From Micromonospora yangpuensis (lineage in GTDB: Bacteria; Actinomycetota; Actinomycetes; Mycobacteriales; Micromonosporaceae), in assembly GCF_900091615.1 (NCBI RefSeq), contig NZ_FMIA01000002.1, forward strand, positions 4,402,001 through 4,466,000: DNA of 64,000 nt. Direction: 5' to 3'. This document shows, one piece after another, positions 3,858 to 62,074 of this stretch (within the stretch, counting starts at the first letter, position 1; each line of letters opens with the position of its first letter). Made by a program: the position numbers and the translations under genes. The notes under the pieces were generated by a model. The model was not told the origin of the DNA. It saw nothing but the letters and a program-made list of their open reading frames with translations, and did no database searches.

Positions 3858-6248
<2,391 letters not shown>

Positions 6249-7432: not shown

Positions 7433-8287
7433 TCAATCCGGATAGCCCTCGGCCACCCGGGCAAGGAAGGCTGTCGACTCGTCCGGGTCGAGCGCCTTCG
7501 CGCGCAGGTGGTCGAACACGAGTCTATATCGCACCACCTGCTTCTCCTCCTCCAGAAGCAGCGTGCTGGAGTCGTTGTCGAGGTAGACCACGGTCGGGTC
7601 CAACAATGGGTCGGCATAGTCCAGCAGGGTGAAAGGACCGCCCATGGCCGCATGCGCCCCGGCGGCGAACGGCAGGATCTGCAGCTCGACGGTTGCCAGC
7701 TCGGAAACGTCAATCAGGCGTCGGAGTTGCGCCTTCATGACTCTCGGCCCACCGACGACACGACGCACCACCGCCTCGTCGAGCACGACCCACAGCCGGG
7801 GCGGTGCGTCTCGGGACAGGAGCACCTTGCGGCTGAGGCGAGCTGCCACCCGTCGGTCGACCTCGTCGTGGTCGGCGGTGGTGCGGCCGGCCTTGACGAT
7901 GGCGCGGACGTACTCCTCGGTCTGCAGCAGACCGGGAACGTAGAGGCTCTCGAAGGCACTGATCGACGTCGCCTCGGCCTCGAAGCCAACGTAGTCGTCC
8001 GGCAGCACGTCGCCGTACGCACTCCACCAGCCCTTCTGCCGCGCCTGTCGGAGCAACCCGGTCAGCGACTCACGCTCCCCCTCGGAGGCGTCGTAGAGGT
8101 CGAGCAAGGACTGCATGTCCTTGGGCATCACCCGGGAGTGCCCGAGTTCGAAGCGGATCACCTTGGTCCGGTGCCAGCCCAGGATCTTGGCCACTTCCTC
8201 CGCCGTACGCCCGGTCCGGTCGCGTAGCCGACGAAGCTCGCGACGGAGCCGACGTGCTCGGATCGTCGGACTGGGCACCTGAGCCAT
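7433..8287 (-). CDS. XRE-family HTH regulator with DUF5753 domain
   Basis: A 284-residue protein counted from the ATG at 8287, with GGAGG eight bases upstream. The N-terminal HTH (residues about 8-62) contains TAEEVAKILGWHRTKVIRFE. The remaining ~220 residues form the DUF5753 ligand or partner domain, with YVPGLLQTEEYVRA and the C-terminal DLLDYADP-like core. It is followed 22 bp later by a DUF397 gene, its usual partner. It diverges from the hypothetical gene at 8431 across a 143-bp promoter region that is AT-rich for this genome, so it may control both directions. Confidence 0.85.
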   Translation of the reverse strand: MAQVPSPTIRARRLRRELRRLRDRTGRTAEEVAKILGWHRTKVIRFELGHSRVMPKDMQSLLDLYDASEGERESLTGLLRQARQKGWWSAYGDVLPDDYVGFEAEATSISAFESLYVPGLLQTEEYVRAIVKAGRTTADHDEVDRRVAARLSRKVLLSRDAPPRLWVVLDEAVVRRVVGGPRVMKAQLRRLIDVSELATVELQILPFAAGAHAAMGGPFTLLDYADPLLDPTVVYLDNDSSTLLLEEEKQVVRYRLVFDHLRAKALDPDESTAFLARVAEGYPD

Positions 8288-59126: not shown

Positions 59127-59747
59127 TCAGGAGGCGGGCTCGGCCACCTCGCCGCCGGCGGTCTCGGCCAGGATCCGCTCGGCGACCTCCTTCATGGTCA
59201 TCCGGTGGTCCATCGCGGTGCGCTGGATCCACTTGAACGCCTGCGGCTCGGTCATCCCGTACGTGGTCATCAGCGCGCCCTTGGCACGCTCCACGGTCTT
59301 GCGGATCTCCAGGCGGTCGGTCAGCCCGGCCACCTCCGCCTCCAGCGCCGAGACCTCCGCGTACCGGGAGAGGGCGATCTCCACCGCCGGCACCAGGTCG
59401 CTCTTCTGGAACGGCTTCACCAGGTACGCCATCGCCCCGGCGGCACGGGCCCGCTCGACCAGGTCCCGCTGGCTGAACGCGGTCAGGATGATCACCGGCG
59501 CGATCCGGCCCCCGGCGATCCGCTCGGCGGCGGCCAGACCATCCATGATCGGCATCTTGATGTCCAGGATGACCAGGTCGGGCTTGAGCTCCTCGGCCAA
59601 CCGGACGGCGGTCTCACCGTCACCGGCCTCGCCGACCACCTCGTAGCCCTCCTCGACCAGCATCTCGGCCAGGTCCAGCCGGATGAGCGCCTCGTCCTCG
59701 GCGATCAGTACGCGCCTACGCTCGGCATCCGTCTGCGTCTCCGCCAC
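59127..59747 (-). CDS. pdtaR: ANTAR-domain response regulator (PdtaR-type)
   Basis: A 206-residue RNA-binding response regulator. The receiver domain (about 12-125) has VLIAEDEALIRLDLAEML, the phosphorylated Asp in LVILDIKMPIMDG, Thr in ILTAFSQ and Lys in YLVKPF. The ANTAR domain (about 140-195) contains KTVERAKGALMTTYGMTEPQ and MTMKEVAERIL. ANTAR proteins bind paired hairpins in mRNAs to block termination; the mycobacterial PdtaR acts with the histidine kinase PdtaS. No kinase gene is adjacent here. The GTG at 59747 has GGGAG upstream. Confidence 0.9.
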   Translation of the reverse strand: MAETQTDAERRRVLIAEDEALIRLDLAEMLVEEGYEVVGEAGDGETAVRLAEELKPDLVILDIKMPIMDGLAAAERIAGGRIAPVIILTAFSQRDLVERARAAGAMAYLVKPFQKSDLVPAVEIALSRYAEVSALEAEVAGLTDRLEIRKTVERAKGALMTTYGMTEPQAFKWIQRTAMDHRMTMKEVAERILAETAGGEVAEPAS

Positions 59748-59842
59748 GAGCCACTCCCACCAGTCTGTGCTCCGACACCCGCCGTGCCCGGGTGTCACCG
59801 TCTCCAGCCTAGTGGGTAGTCTGTCAGTGCCGAATCACGGAA

Positions 59843-59919
59843 GCCCCTGTACTCCAACCGGAAGAGAGACGGAGCTCAAACCTCCGACAGTGTGGGTTCG
59901 AGTCCCACCGGGGGCACCA
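59843..59919 (+). tRNA. tRNA-like gene, anticodon CAA (Leu) with class I variable loop
   Basis: The 77-nt sequence folds as a full cloverleaf with an encoded CCA. The acceptor is GCCCCTG with CGGGGGC. The D stem is CTC/GAG. The anticodon stem is CGGAG/CTCCG with loop CTCAAAC, so the anticodon is CAA at 59877-59879. The T arm is GTGGG-TTCGAGT-CCCAC. The variable loop is only five bases (ACAGT), whereas bacterial tRNA-Leu is class II with a long variable arm. The D stem has only three pairs. It may be annotated as tRNA-Leu(CAA), but its charging identity is uncertain. Confidence 0.8.
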
Positions 59920-59950
59920 AAGTGTCATACGCCTGTTCGAATATGACCGC

Positions 59951-60700
59951 GTGCATCCGCTTGAGATCCATACTCTGGCCCGCCGCATCTACTTCTCCGG
60001 ATGCACGGTTGCCGAGACGGCGCGTCAGGTAGGACTCCCCTACCAGACCGTCTGGCACTGGTGCCGGGACCGCACAGAACGGAAGCAGCACGGCACAGCC
60101 CTGCGTTGCTTCCGCTGCAACCCGGCTCTGGCCGGCCCGGTGGACATTGTCAGCTACGCCTACCTGCTGGGCCTCTACCTGGGCGACGGCCACCTTGTCA
60201 CGTCGACGAAGGCACCCGTGCTGCGGGTCAGTTGCACGGAGATCTACCCCGGCCTCATCGACGCTTGCGAGCAGGCGATGCTGGCCGTCCTCGCGGCCCG
60301 GGTGCAACGGACCCCGAAGCAGGGATGTGTCCTGGTGCAGAGCAGTGGCGCGCACTGGCCGTGTCTGTTGCCGCAGCACGGGCCGGGCAAGAAGCACGAG
60401 CGGCCGATCGTGCTCGCCGACTGGCAGCGCCGCATCGTCGCCGACCACCCCGGCGACTTCCTCCGCGGCCTGTTCCACTCCGACGGCTGTCGAGCCACCA
60501 ACCGGGTGACCACCCGCGGGAAGGTCTACGTCTATCCGCGGTACATGTTCTCCAACCGGTCGACCGACATCATGGGCCTCTGCCAGTGGGCCCTCGACCT
60601 GCTCGGCGTCGAGTGGCGGATGAACATGCCGTACTCGTTGTCGGTGGCGCGGCGCTCGGCGGTGGCCGTACTCGATCGGCATGTCGGGCCGAAGCACTGA
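59951..60700 (+). CDS. HTH plus LAGLIDADG homing-endonuclease-like protein
   Basis: A 249-residue protein starting at GTG, 31 bp beyond the tRNA. Residues 15-45 are a helix-turn-helix (CTVAETARQVGLPYQTVWHW). CFRC at 53-56 could be half of a zinc site. Two LAGLIDADG helices are YLLGLYLGDG at 71-80 and FLRGLFHSDG at 170-179, each with the acidic residue needed for cleavage, so it is a monomeric two-repeat form. The C-terminus is SLSVARRSAVAVLDRHVGPKH. Related proteins in actinomycetes are often labelled transcriptional regulators. The adjacency to a tRNA is suggestive of a site-specific mobile gene or an RNA-processing role. Confidence 0.75.
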   Translation: MHPLEIHTLARRIYFSGCTVAETARQVGLPYQTVWHWCRDRTERKQHGTALRCFRCNPALAGPVDIVSYAYLLGLYLGDGHLVTSTKAPVLRVSCTEIYPGLIDACEQAMLAVLAARVQRTPKQGCVLVQSSGAHWPCLLPQHGPGKKHERPIVLADWQRRIVADHPGDFLRGLFHSDGCRATNRVTTRGKVYVYPRYMFSNRSTDIMGLCQWALDLLGVEWRMNMPYSLSVARRSAVAVLDRHVGPKH

Positions 60701-60803
60701 GCACCGCGCGCCCGACCGCCGGGCCGAGCGCGGCGGCCGCCGGGGCCGGCCGAAGGCGGCGCGGCCTGGGGTACCGGTCGCGCGCGGCGGCCGTCGGGGC
60801 CCT

Positions 60804-60903
60804 GGTGCGCCGACCGCCCGGGGCCGGTGGGGTCCGGGACACCGGCGCCGAGGAGTCGTTCCGGAAGAGGCCCGGGTGCGCCGACGGCCCGGGGCCGGTG
60901 GGG
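60804..60903. repeat. 29-bp direct repeat pair
   Basis: Copies at 60804-60832 and 60875-60903 (core GGTGCGCCGACSGCCCGGGG) differ at one base and are 71 bp apart. They lie in the gap between the LAGLIDADG gene and the PLP enzyme gene. No other gene is seen in this gap. Confidence 0.55.
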
Positions 60904-60913
60904 CCTGCGGGCG

Positions 60914-62074
60914 TCAGCCGAGGGTGGCCAGGGCGCGGGCCAGGTCGTCGCGGAGGTCCTCGGGGTCCTCCAGGCCTACCGAGAGGCGCAGGAGTCCGGC
61001 TGCGGGTCGGGCGTCGCCGGCGACCGGGCGGTGGGTGAGCGAGGCGGGATGTTGGATGAGGGTGTCCACGCCGCCGAGGGAGACGGCGTGGGTGATGAGC
61101 CGGCAGGCGTCAGCGACGGCGGTGGCGGCGGGCGCGCCGCCGGCTACCTCGAAGGCGAGCAGGCTGCCGCCGCCGGCGAGTTGGCGGCCGACCAGCCCGG
61201 CGGGGTCGTGCAGGCTGGGGTGGTGGACCCGGGTGACGGCCCGGTGACCGGCGAGCCAGCCGGCGAGTTTCTCGGCGCCGGCCTGCTGGGCGCGCACCCG
61301 TAGCGGCAGGGTCTGCAGGCCGCGGTGCAGGAGGTATCCGCCGAGGGGGTGCAGGATCGCGCCGGTGAGGGCGCGGACCTGGCGTAGTCGGGTGGCCCAG
61401 CCGGCGTCGCAGGCGACGACGCCGGCGAGGACGTCGCCGTGTCCGCCGATGCTCTTGGTGGCGCTGTGCAGGACCAGGGCCGCGCCGTGCCGGGCGGGTT
61501 GCTGGAGTACGCAGGTGGCGACGGTGTTGTCGACGAGCAGGGGTACGTCGCCGGCGGCGTCGGCCAGGGCGGCGATGTCGACGAGGTCGAGGGTGGGGTT
61601 GGCGGGGGTCTCGGCGATGACCAGTGCGGTGTCGGGGCGGATCGCGGTGGCGACCTGCTCGGGGTGGGCCCAGCTGACGGTGGTGCCGAGCAGCCCGGTG
61701 GCCAGGACGTGGTCGGTGCCGCCGTAGAGGGGGCGGACGGCGACGACGTGTCGTCGTCCGTCGGTGGCGGCGGCGAGCAGGGTGGCGGTGAGGGCGGCCA
61801 TGCCGCTGGCGAAGGCGACGGCGTCGGTGGTGCCTTCGAGGTCGGCGAGGGCGGTTTCGAACCGGGCGACGGTGGGGTTCCAGAGGCGCTGGTAGACGGG
61901 GCTGTCGCCGGTGGGGAGGGTGCCGCCGGTGGCGAGGGTCTCGTAGGTGTGGCCGCCGGCGTCGACCGAGGGCAGCGGGTTGGTGGTGGACAGGTCGATG
62001 GGTGGGGCGTGGACGCCGAGGGCGGCCAGGTCGGCGCGGCCGGCGTGCACGGCTCGGGTGTCCACGGTCGTCAT
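60914..62074 (-). CDS. Cys/Met metabolism PLP-dependent enzyme (trans-sulfuration family)
   Basis: A 386-residue fold type I PLP enzyme of the cystathionine gamma-synthase/lyase group. It has YQRLWNPTVARFETALADLE, FASGMAALTATLL (phosphate-contact region), ETPANPTLDLVDI, the Asp of VDNTVAT, and the PLP lysine K207 in LHSATKSIGGHGD. The C-terminus has HPASLTHRP, a gamma-family hallmark. Cystathionine or methionine gamma-lyase activity is likely; which one is not clear. It diverges from an Lrp/AsnC gene that probably regulates it. Confidence 0.85.
   Translation of the reverse strand: MTTVDTRAVHAGRADLAALGVHAPPIDLSTTNPLPSVDAGGHTYETLATGGTLPTGDSPVYQRLWNPTVARFETALADLEGTTDAVAFASGMAALTATLLAAATDGRRHVVAVRPLYGGTDHVLATGLLGTTVSWAHPEQVATAIRPDTALVIAETPANPTLDLVDIAALADAAGDVPLLVDNTVATCVLQQPARHGAALVLHSATKSIGGHGDVLAGVVACDAGWATRLRQVRALTGAILHPLGGYLLHRGLQTLPLRVRAQQAGAEKLAGWLAGHRAVTRVHHPSLHDPAGLVGRQLAGGGSLLAFEVAGGAPAATAVADACRLITHAVSLGGVDTLIQHPASLTHRPVAGDARPAAGLLRLSVGLEDPEDLRDDLARALATLG

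Follow-up and report, generated by a model that had tools for sequence, protein, structure and literature searches.

Results

A short-armed tRNA-Leu gene followed by a LAGLIDADG gene in Micromonospora yangpuensis

The locus described here lies in a stretch of 64,000 nucleotides of the M. yangpuensis genome (contig NZ_FMIA01000002.1, positions 4,402,001 to 4,466,000), hereafter the window. It consists of a tRNA-Leu(CAA) gene and, after a gap of 31 bp, a gene on the same strand for a putative free-standing homing endonuclease with an N-terminal helix-turn-helix (HTH) and two LAGLIDADG motifs. The features of the locus are collected in Table 1, together with related arrangements found elsewhere; L, G and g numbers denote loci, genomes and genera, respectively.

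The tRNA is the sole Leu(CAA) tRNA detected in this genome. Its variable loop has 5 bases, and the long variable arm of canonical bacterial tRNA-Leu (class II) is absent. The window tRNA was compared with 30 others picked from a total of 81 distinct sequences of class I tRNA-Leu(CAA). Standard pairs made up 98.7% of the pair cells, 13 of the 20 pairs showed changes on both sides (shuffled mean 9.6) and the cells with such changes numbered 119, compared to 31.5 after shuffling; covariation was also seen in two of the three D-stem pairs. The window thus encodes a real class I tRNA-Leu(CAA), with the anticodon, encoded CCA and loop length that the original prediction had described from the letters of the window. 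The tRNA-Leu(UAG) of M. yangpuensis (G000:C2:1563898-1563972) is also class I, and two of the five Leu tRNAs of the genome are without a long arm.

In the two genes flanking the locus, all TTG codons fell at Leu columns, both in class I (26 of 26) and in class II genomes (17 of 17); within the endonuclease gene, 41 of 51 and 37 of 40 did so, respectively. As these codons sit mostly at Leu columns, a reassignment of UUG was rejected. The codon is most likely read as Leu in class I genomes, though the reading may be done by tRNA-Leu(UAA), which can also read UUG.

The description of the neighbouring protein as a two-motif LAGLIDADG protein with HTH and CxxC, starting 31 bp past the tRNA, was likewise borne out. 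Pfam assigned LAGLIDADG_3 and HTH families to the window protein and its relatives, and its predicted fold is the LAGLIDADG monomer fold according to a VIA-align structure comparison, which barely tests the HTH part. The two acidic residues, said to be kept in the window protein, were invariant in 30 of 30 divergent members and in 77 of 77 Micromonospora-type copies, so that no loss among homologues was seen. The gene appears to be under constraint, with a median ratio of non-synonymous to synonymous substitution rates (dN/dS) of 0.17 over 49 pairs. In three loci (L105, L199 and L211) the endonuclease is present in two tandem copies adjoining one tRNA-Leu(CAA).

Other identities for the protein were considered. 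No GIY-YIG domain was found among the Pfam matches, and the protein does not belong to the SegB family. The WhiA family gave no Pfam match either, for the window protein up to E 1 and for the 30 members up to E 0.01. Moreover, the HTH occupies residues 4-38 and LAGLIDADG begins at residue 66, an order different from that of WhiA, the HTH of which is presumably C-terminal. A WhiA paralogue was therefore rejected on the grounds of domain order, acids and Pfam result, though the fold is equally close to WhiA. A role in anti-phage defence was also rejected, as the PADLOC models gave no match.

Table 1. Positions of the features of the window (59127 to 62005, counted from its first letter) and of related arrangements at other loci
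Feature	Position	Strand	Remarks
Response regulator with ANTAR domain	59127..59798	-	Left flank; conserved, outside the exchanged cassette (see below), transcribed away from the tRNA
Class I tRNA-Leu(CAA)	59843..59919	+	Anticodon 59877-59879, discriminator A 59916, encoded CCA 59917-59919
LexA/SOS-box-like palindrome TCATACGCCTGTTCGA	59925..59940	+	Between tRNA and endonuclease
Free-standing HTH-LAGLIDADG protein, putative homing endonuclease	59951..60700	+	249 aa, GTG start, stop included
N-terminal helix-turn-helix	59960..60064	+	Residues 4-38
CxxC	60107..60118	+	C53, C56
D79 codon	60185..60187	+	Acid of LAGLIDADG motif 1 (helix 66-79)
D178 codon	60482..60484	+	Acid of LAGLIDADG motif 2 (helix 167-178)
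Cys/Met-metabolism pyridoxal phosphate (PLP) enzyme	60914..62005	-	Right flank; in most Micromonospora loci, outside the cassette
Cut tRNA-Leu genes with endonuclease	L325:372-999, 3934-4756, 8031 onward		Virus contig
HTH-HNH gene upstream of tRNA-Leu(UAG)	L268-L271, L276, L278, L280, L281		Intact or broken

The endonuclease gene adjoins tRNA-Leu genes across actinobacteria

The association of both genes was followed in three sets of genomes. Among 110 loci fetched with the protein (the window, 29 from genomes of the genus and 80 named contigs, many species being present twice), tRNA-Leu(CAA) was found immediately upstream on the same strand in 109; at the exception (L093), only about 80 bp of contig precede the match. 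For the class, an evenly spread sample had the gene in 88 of 394 genomes and 26 of 137 genera; a tRNA-Leu was present no more than about 1 kb away in 85 of 87 loci taken from it, and the two others (L205, L266) lie at contig ends. This tRNA was Leu(CAA) on the same strand as the gene in 73 of the 85 loci, Leu(CAA) on the opposite strand in five (L207, L229, L233, L242, L260) and Leu(UAG) on the opposite strand in seven (L228, L247, L249, L250, L254, L256, L263).

In a sample of the phylum, 24 of 168 genomes matched the alignment profile of the endonuclease. All 17 matches with E <1e-50, which include the own genome and four re-finds, adjoin a tRNA, this being tRNA-Leu in 16 (11 Leu(CAA), two Leu(UAG), two Leu(CAG) and one Leu(UAA)) and tRNA-Trp in one, with the gene on either side of the tRNA and in either orientation. 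At the Trp locus (L298), the family member adjoins tRNA-Trp(CCA), and a tRNA-Leu(UAG) lies about 1.2 kb off. Eleven weaker matches, covering at most the first 116 profile positions, were left out of this count. Six of them (L302, L303, L304, L308, L311, L312) have no tRNA within the fetched stretch, L301 is a remnant adjoining tRNA-Leu(CAA), and in L306 an HNH gene is flanked by tRNA-Phe and tRNA-Asp, which suggests that tRNA-linked endonucleases extend beyond Leu. By eye, the L306 protein is HNH-like with a C-terminal HTH, and L307 and L310 hold a gene between the same tRNA pair. The pairing of tRNA and protein, noticed at first in the window, thus holds in all three sets.

Class I and class II tRNAs alternate at the same locus

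A collection of 131 loci (L001-L110, L160-L180) was reduced to 102 distinct Micromonospora-type loci by dropping duplicates, loci without a tRNA pattern and loci with a response regulator <88% identical to that of the window; one of the 102 (L096) is from Amorphoplanes. Between the response regulator and the endonuclease position, 62 of these loci carry a class I and 40 a class II tRNA-Leu(CAA), amounting to 33 distinct class I and seven distinct class II sequences, and 25 loci had no endonuclease match over 200 residues. Therefore, the association of the gene with tRNA-Leu stands, but it is not tied to the short-arm form: class II tRNAs are frequent partners, and the class I pattern is also found without the gene.

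The tRNA-Leu(UAG) gene had been meant as a quiet control, but in Micromonospora it proved to be class I or class II as well (pattern matched in 104 of 160 genomes), and 8 of the 18 loci that were fetched carry an HNH gene, intact or broken, just upstream of it on the same strand; tRNA-Leu(UAA) was therefore used in its place. The latter was matched in 153 of 160 genomes and, among the matches listed, which include a few rows of other or chance matches, all true ones were class II and varied in a few variable-arm and T-loop bases only.

A comparison of genera gave a parallel picture. Genera with the gene were mixed in tRNA class, as in g27 (21 class I and 11 class II loci), g42 (7/4), g47 (5/3) and g72 (3/2) and likewise in Micromonospora (g1) and g25, whereas nine genera without it (g26, g34, g35, g43, g45, g55, g71, g74 and g78, with at least five typed genomes each and 95 in all) were uniform, except for an extra class I-like match in G485 (g74). 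This was a tally by eye with the class taken from pattern length, in which an extra match of other length in G417 and G367 was taken as chance and g2, g13, g68 and g73 were left out for having too few typed genomes; the figure of 1/2002 for the comparison treats genera as independent, which they are not. The gene-less members of g47 and g27 were all class I (11 of 11 and 7 of 7, respectively, one of the latter, G177, having a remnant).

The tRNA and the endonuclease gene are replaced as one cassette

Trees were built for 60 of the 102 loci (34 class I and 26 class II), the other 42 lacking a long enough endonuclease or PLP-enzyme match. On the endonuclease tree the tRNA class changed four times, well below the shuffled values (mean 19.6, minimum 14), whereas on the tree of the response regulator and PLP enzyme it changed 16 times, inside the shuffled range (mean 19.7, minimum 13). 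Taken separately, the flank genes gave 16-17 (response regulator) and 16-19 changes (PLP enzyme). When the endonuclease gene was divided into segments, the changes rose from 5 (bases 0-150) and 5 (150-300) to 8 (300-450), 13 (450-600) and 16 (560-744), so that the linkage to tRNA class decays from the 5' end of the gene (5) to its 3' end (15-16).

Pairs of loci with 96-98% identical flanks showed a sharp divergence over the tRNA and the endonuclease. For example, class I L080 and class II L068 (M. noduli) share 96-100% identity over ~570 bases ending 149 bases before the discriminator. Identity is only 41-78% across the tRNA and the greater part of the endonuclease, and it is back at 88-100% from about +540. 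The first 480 bases of the L080 endonuclease are nearest to class I L083 (80%) and its last 164 bases to class II L068, L060 and L056 (97%). Such a junction within the gene means that the recipient already had the gene, at least partly. In L089/L020 and L050/L046 the switch back occurs near or past the end of the endonuclease gene, and in two of the seven profiled pairs (L059/L045 and L050/L046) the cassette differs and the tRNA class is the same.

The few class changes on the endonuclease tree, the many on the flank tree and these sharp edges indicate allele replacement: in Micromonospora, the tRNA and the adjoining half to whole of the endonuclease gene are replaced as one cassette between conserved flanks. 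The gene lies outside introns and inteins and adjoins a conserved gene whose alleles get exchanged, as is characteristic of intronless homing. The joint replacement supports the suggestion of the original prediction that the protein recognises, cuts or maintains the tRNA locus, of which the cutting is what we infer.

The tRNA outlives the endonuclease gene

Of 160 Micromonospora genomes, 134 matched the endonuclease and 26 did not, and 20 of the 134 matches were in pieces, truncated or with internal stops, some of which may be sequencing errors. When 19 of the 26 genomes without a match and one with a remnant (G103) were inspected, all 20 loci were found to keep tRNA-Leu(CAA) beside the response regulator, as class I in ten and class II in ten. 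Purifying selection together with ongoing loss is what a homing cycle would predict, though it is no proof of one. Since loss or breakage of the gene leaves the tRNA in place, and the gene may lie on either side and strand, the further proposal that the protein could process the tRNA itself found no support, and a tRNA-processing operon was rejected.

Cut tRNA-Leu genes in virus contigs

Six IMG/VR contigs, all of them metagenome assemblies, encode relatives of the endonuclease, in every case beside a tRNA-Leu; two of them (L320 and L321) are nearly alike around the gene. In L325 a single tRNA-Leu gene is split by the reading frame: its 5' part (acceptor strand and D arm) is at 3934, and the T arm follows directly on the endonuclease stop together with the complementary acceptor strand. 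The coding sequence itself contains, in frame, a complete class I tRNA-Leu(CAA) (4127-4200). At 372 the same contig has a 5' tRNA-Leu half and then an HNH gene that overlaps a class I tRNA-Leu(UAA) at its end; a further half, at 8031, stands ahead of an HNH gene running off the fetched stretch, and an apparent half at 6021 is probably an intact tRNA missed by ARAGORN. In L324, on a contig shared with L334, the LAGLIDADG gene comes after a 5' half at 3870 and overlaps at its end with a class I tRNA-Leu(CAA). In these virus genes the tRNA-Leu is cut after the D arm and not at the 3' end. At L323, L337, L338 and L351 the endonuclease frame ends within a few bases of a class I tRNA-Leu or overlaps it. 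Because two virus contigs hold a cut class II tRNA-Leu, an endonuclease and a class I tRNA-Leu together, these data suggest that the short tRNA is an uncuttable replacement, as in a natural form of home-and-rescue.

Class I Leu(CAA) with the same T-arm signature was common in virus contigs among the matches listed. Eighty such loci (L326-L405), from at least 120 stretches, included two that match the endonuclease profile (L334, L351) and seven that match an HNH query, so most of the listed virus class I tRNAs have no endonuclease neighbour nearby. No endonuclease match was obtained in GenBank records of phages.

HNH genes at tRNA-Leu(UAG)

The HNH genes detected upstream of tRNA-Leu(UAG) in Micromonospora, a second and unrelated case of a nuclease gene adjoining a tRNA-Leu of alternating class, come from 18 loci fetched out of the 104, and three of the eight are visibly broken. 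One of the proteins was checked and matched PF01844 with 24.8 bits. By eye, class I and class II loci seem to differ in the tRNA-proximal part of the HTH-HNH protein. L282 and L284 hold a different insert, and the UAG locus of the window genome has none.

Flanking genes and a LexA-like box

The ANTAR response regulator is kept upstream even in Streptomyces and Streptosporangium loci, and the locus is therefore old. The LexA-like pattern occurs at seven places of the genome, one of which is the start of lexA, making a damage-induced expression of the endonuclease plausible in Micromonospora, where the box is conserved; it was not evident in most of the Streptomyces loci printed. LexA-like sites were seen at L313, L315, L317 and L319, that of L315 adjoining a gene named radical-SAM-like by eye. 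The sites besides lexA and 59925-59940 may outline part of the Micromonospora SOS regulon.

Discussion

The results presented here point, with a probability of roughly 0.7, to a free-standing LAGLIDADG homing endonuclease that parasitises tRNA-Leu genes, with home-and-rescue through the tRNA allele that it carries. The enzyme would cut a tRNA-Leu allele different from its own travelling partner, and repair of the break from the donor would leave the recipient with the donor tRNA and endonuclease. The carried allele, be it of the other class or another stem variant, would be free of the cut site, and in this way it would both protect the donor and keep a working tRNA. The LexA-like box suggests that the enzyme may be induced during active DNA repair. 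The virus halves point to a cut at the D arm; in that case the different D arm of class I tRNAs would make them resistant, and the enzymes linked to class II would need a different specificity. In line with this, linkage to tRNA class is retained by the tRNA-proximal half of the protein, which contains the HTH and first motif, although simple proximity would also account for it.

Several observations weigh against this interpretation. The tract of any recombination would carry both genes, 31 bp apart, so linkage alone is no proof of cutting, and the tree test covers Micromonospora with two flank genes as the species history. Class II is the partner in 26 of the 60 tree loci, so class I could not be the sole immune form and a switch in specificity would also be needed, and the class I Leu(CAA) pattern is widespread in actinomycetes without the endonuclease gene. 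In addition, tRNA-Leu(CAA), the pattern of which had no match in 2 of 160 Micromonospora genomes (G032, G036), is probably dispensable, so that its rescue may bring little. Regarding the viruses, the cut-tRNA architecture comes from two metagenomic contigs, and the relatives in L320-L322 adjoin an intact class II tRNA-Leu(UAA). Finally, the predicted fold does not by itself tell the protein apart from WhiA.

The best surviving alternative, though an unlikely one, is a target spanning the 3' end of the tRNA or its flank, in which case insertion alone would destroy the site and the tRNA allele would be co-converted without any protective role. The position of the gene 31 bp past the tRNA in the window would fit, and phage endonucleases of the free-standing kind are known to co-convert their flanks (PMC2988022, in the parts available). 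However, cassettes are swapped for cassettes with junctions inside the gene, meaning that the recipient already had at least a part of the gene and should have been immune. Furthermore, other lineages have the gene 5' of the tRNA or on the opposite strand, and the virus tRNA-Leu genes are cut after the D arm.

Somewhat less likely still is a diversification of tRNA-Leu alleles to escape tRNA-cleaving toxins or defence nucleases, with the endonuclease as a passenger or exchange helper. The tRNA alleles are indeed diverse, with 33 of class I and seven of class II in the 102 loci, but the nine gene-less genera are uniform but for one extra match and the gene-bearing ones mixed, tRNA-Leu(UAA) of the same genomes barely varies among the matches listed, and PADLOC models gave no match.

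Ordinary homologous recombination between species, with linkage due to proximity and no bias driven by the endonuclease, is improbable. The linkage block is indeed short and the two genes touch each other; against this, tRNA class is distributed almost at random over the flank genes, the left one of which lies within 200 bp, the replaced tracts are confined to the cassette and no exchange of class was seen at tRNA-Leu(UAA) among the matches listed. Least probable of all is a cellular protein acting on the tRNA or its expression by processing, modification or regulation, in spite of the name 'transcriptional regulator' given by some sources, for the tRNA is retained in genomes that lack the gene or have a broken copy, the side and strand of the gene and the tRNA anticodon differ between lineages, the catalytic acids are invariant and the alleles of both genes are exchanged together.

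A broader extension of the homing endonuclease reading is tentative, and somewhat short of an even chance. Two unrelated endonuclease types, HTH-LAGLIDADG and HTH-HNH, could both be natural home-and-rescue elements that attack tRNA-Leu genes, destroy the resident long-arm tRNA and carry a short-arm tRNA-Leu without the cut site; short-arm tRNA-Leu genes of actinobacteria and phages would then be domesticated rescue copies.

If the homing endonuclease reading is correct, the cassette would be nature's equivalent of a gene drive that brings its own replacement, directed at a tRNA gene of bacterial chromosomes, and it would explain why the long arm of tRNA-Leu, supposedly fixed, flips between closely related species. 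It would also point to a way, open to testing, in which the translation machinery is remodelled by selfish nucleases, and would provide a group of compact endonucleases that may change specificity along with the carried tRNA allele.

No prior description of a tRNA-Leu/HTH-LAGLIDADG cassette was found in searches of open-access literature, most subscription papers being outside the coverage. Among LAGLIDADG proteins, WhiA (DUF199) presumably has the HTH at the opposite end, has lost the catalytic acids and is not known to be linked to a tRNA, whereas both acids are invariant here. The archaeal endonucleases I-DmoI and I-Tsp061I are intron-encoded and not known to have an N-terminal HTH.

Free-standing phage endonucleases of intronless homing, such as seg and mob of T4, are alike in lying between conserved genes without intron or intein and in co-converting their neighbours, as far as the available parts of PMC2988022 describe them. 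The T4 enzymes are GIY-YIG or HNH proteins of phages according to the same parts, whereas the gene described here encodes LAGLIDADG with an N-terminal HTH, is mostly chromosomal, is tied to one tRNA type and swaps structurally different tRNA alleles. SegB of T4/T6 is similarly located in or near tRNA genes and linked to the inheritance or amplification of the tRNA region (PMC13096335), but it is a GIY-YIG protein without tRNA isotype preference, its target listed as a tRNA intergenic region (PMC2988022), whereas here the isotype is almost always Leu. The HNH endonucleases of mycobacterial tRNA clusters are likewise found among actinobacterial tRNA genes, and the tRNA-Leu(TAG) of such a cluster has a short variable loop (PMC6582537, available passages). 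These clusters, by contrast, have 11-14 tRNAs, are thought to be phage-derived and contain endonucleases of HNH type, and the replacement of a single chromosomal tRNA allele, as seen here, does not appear in those passages. Similar in logic are the engineered Cleave-and-Rescue and home-and-rescue gene drives, in which the normal gene is cut and an uncuttable replacement carried along; these are synthetic and operate in insects, whereas the tRNA-Leu cassette would be a natural case.
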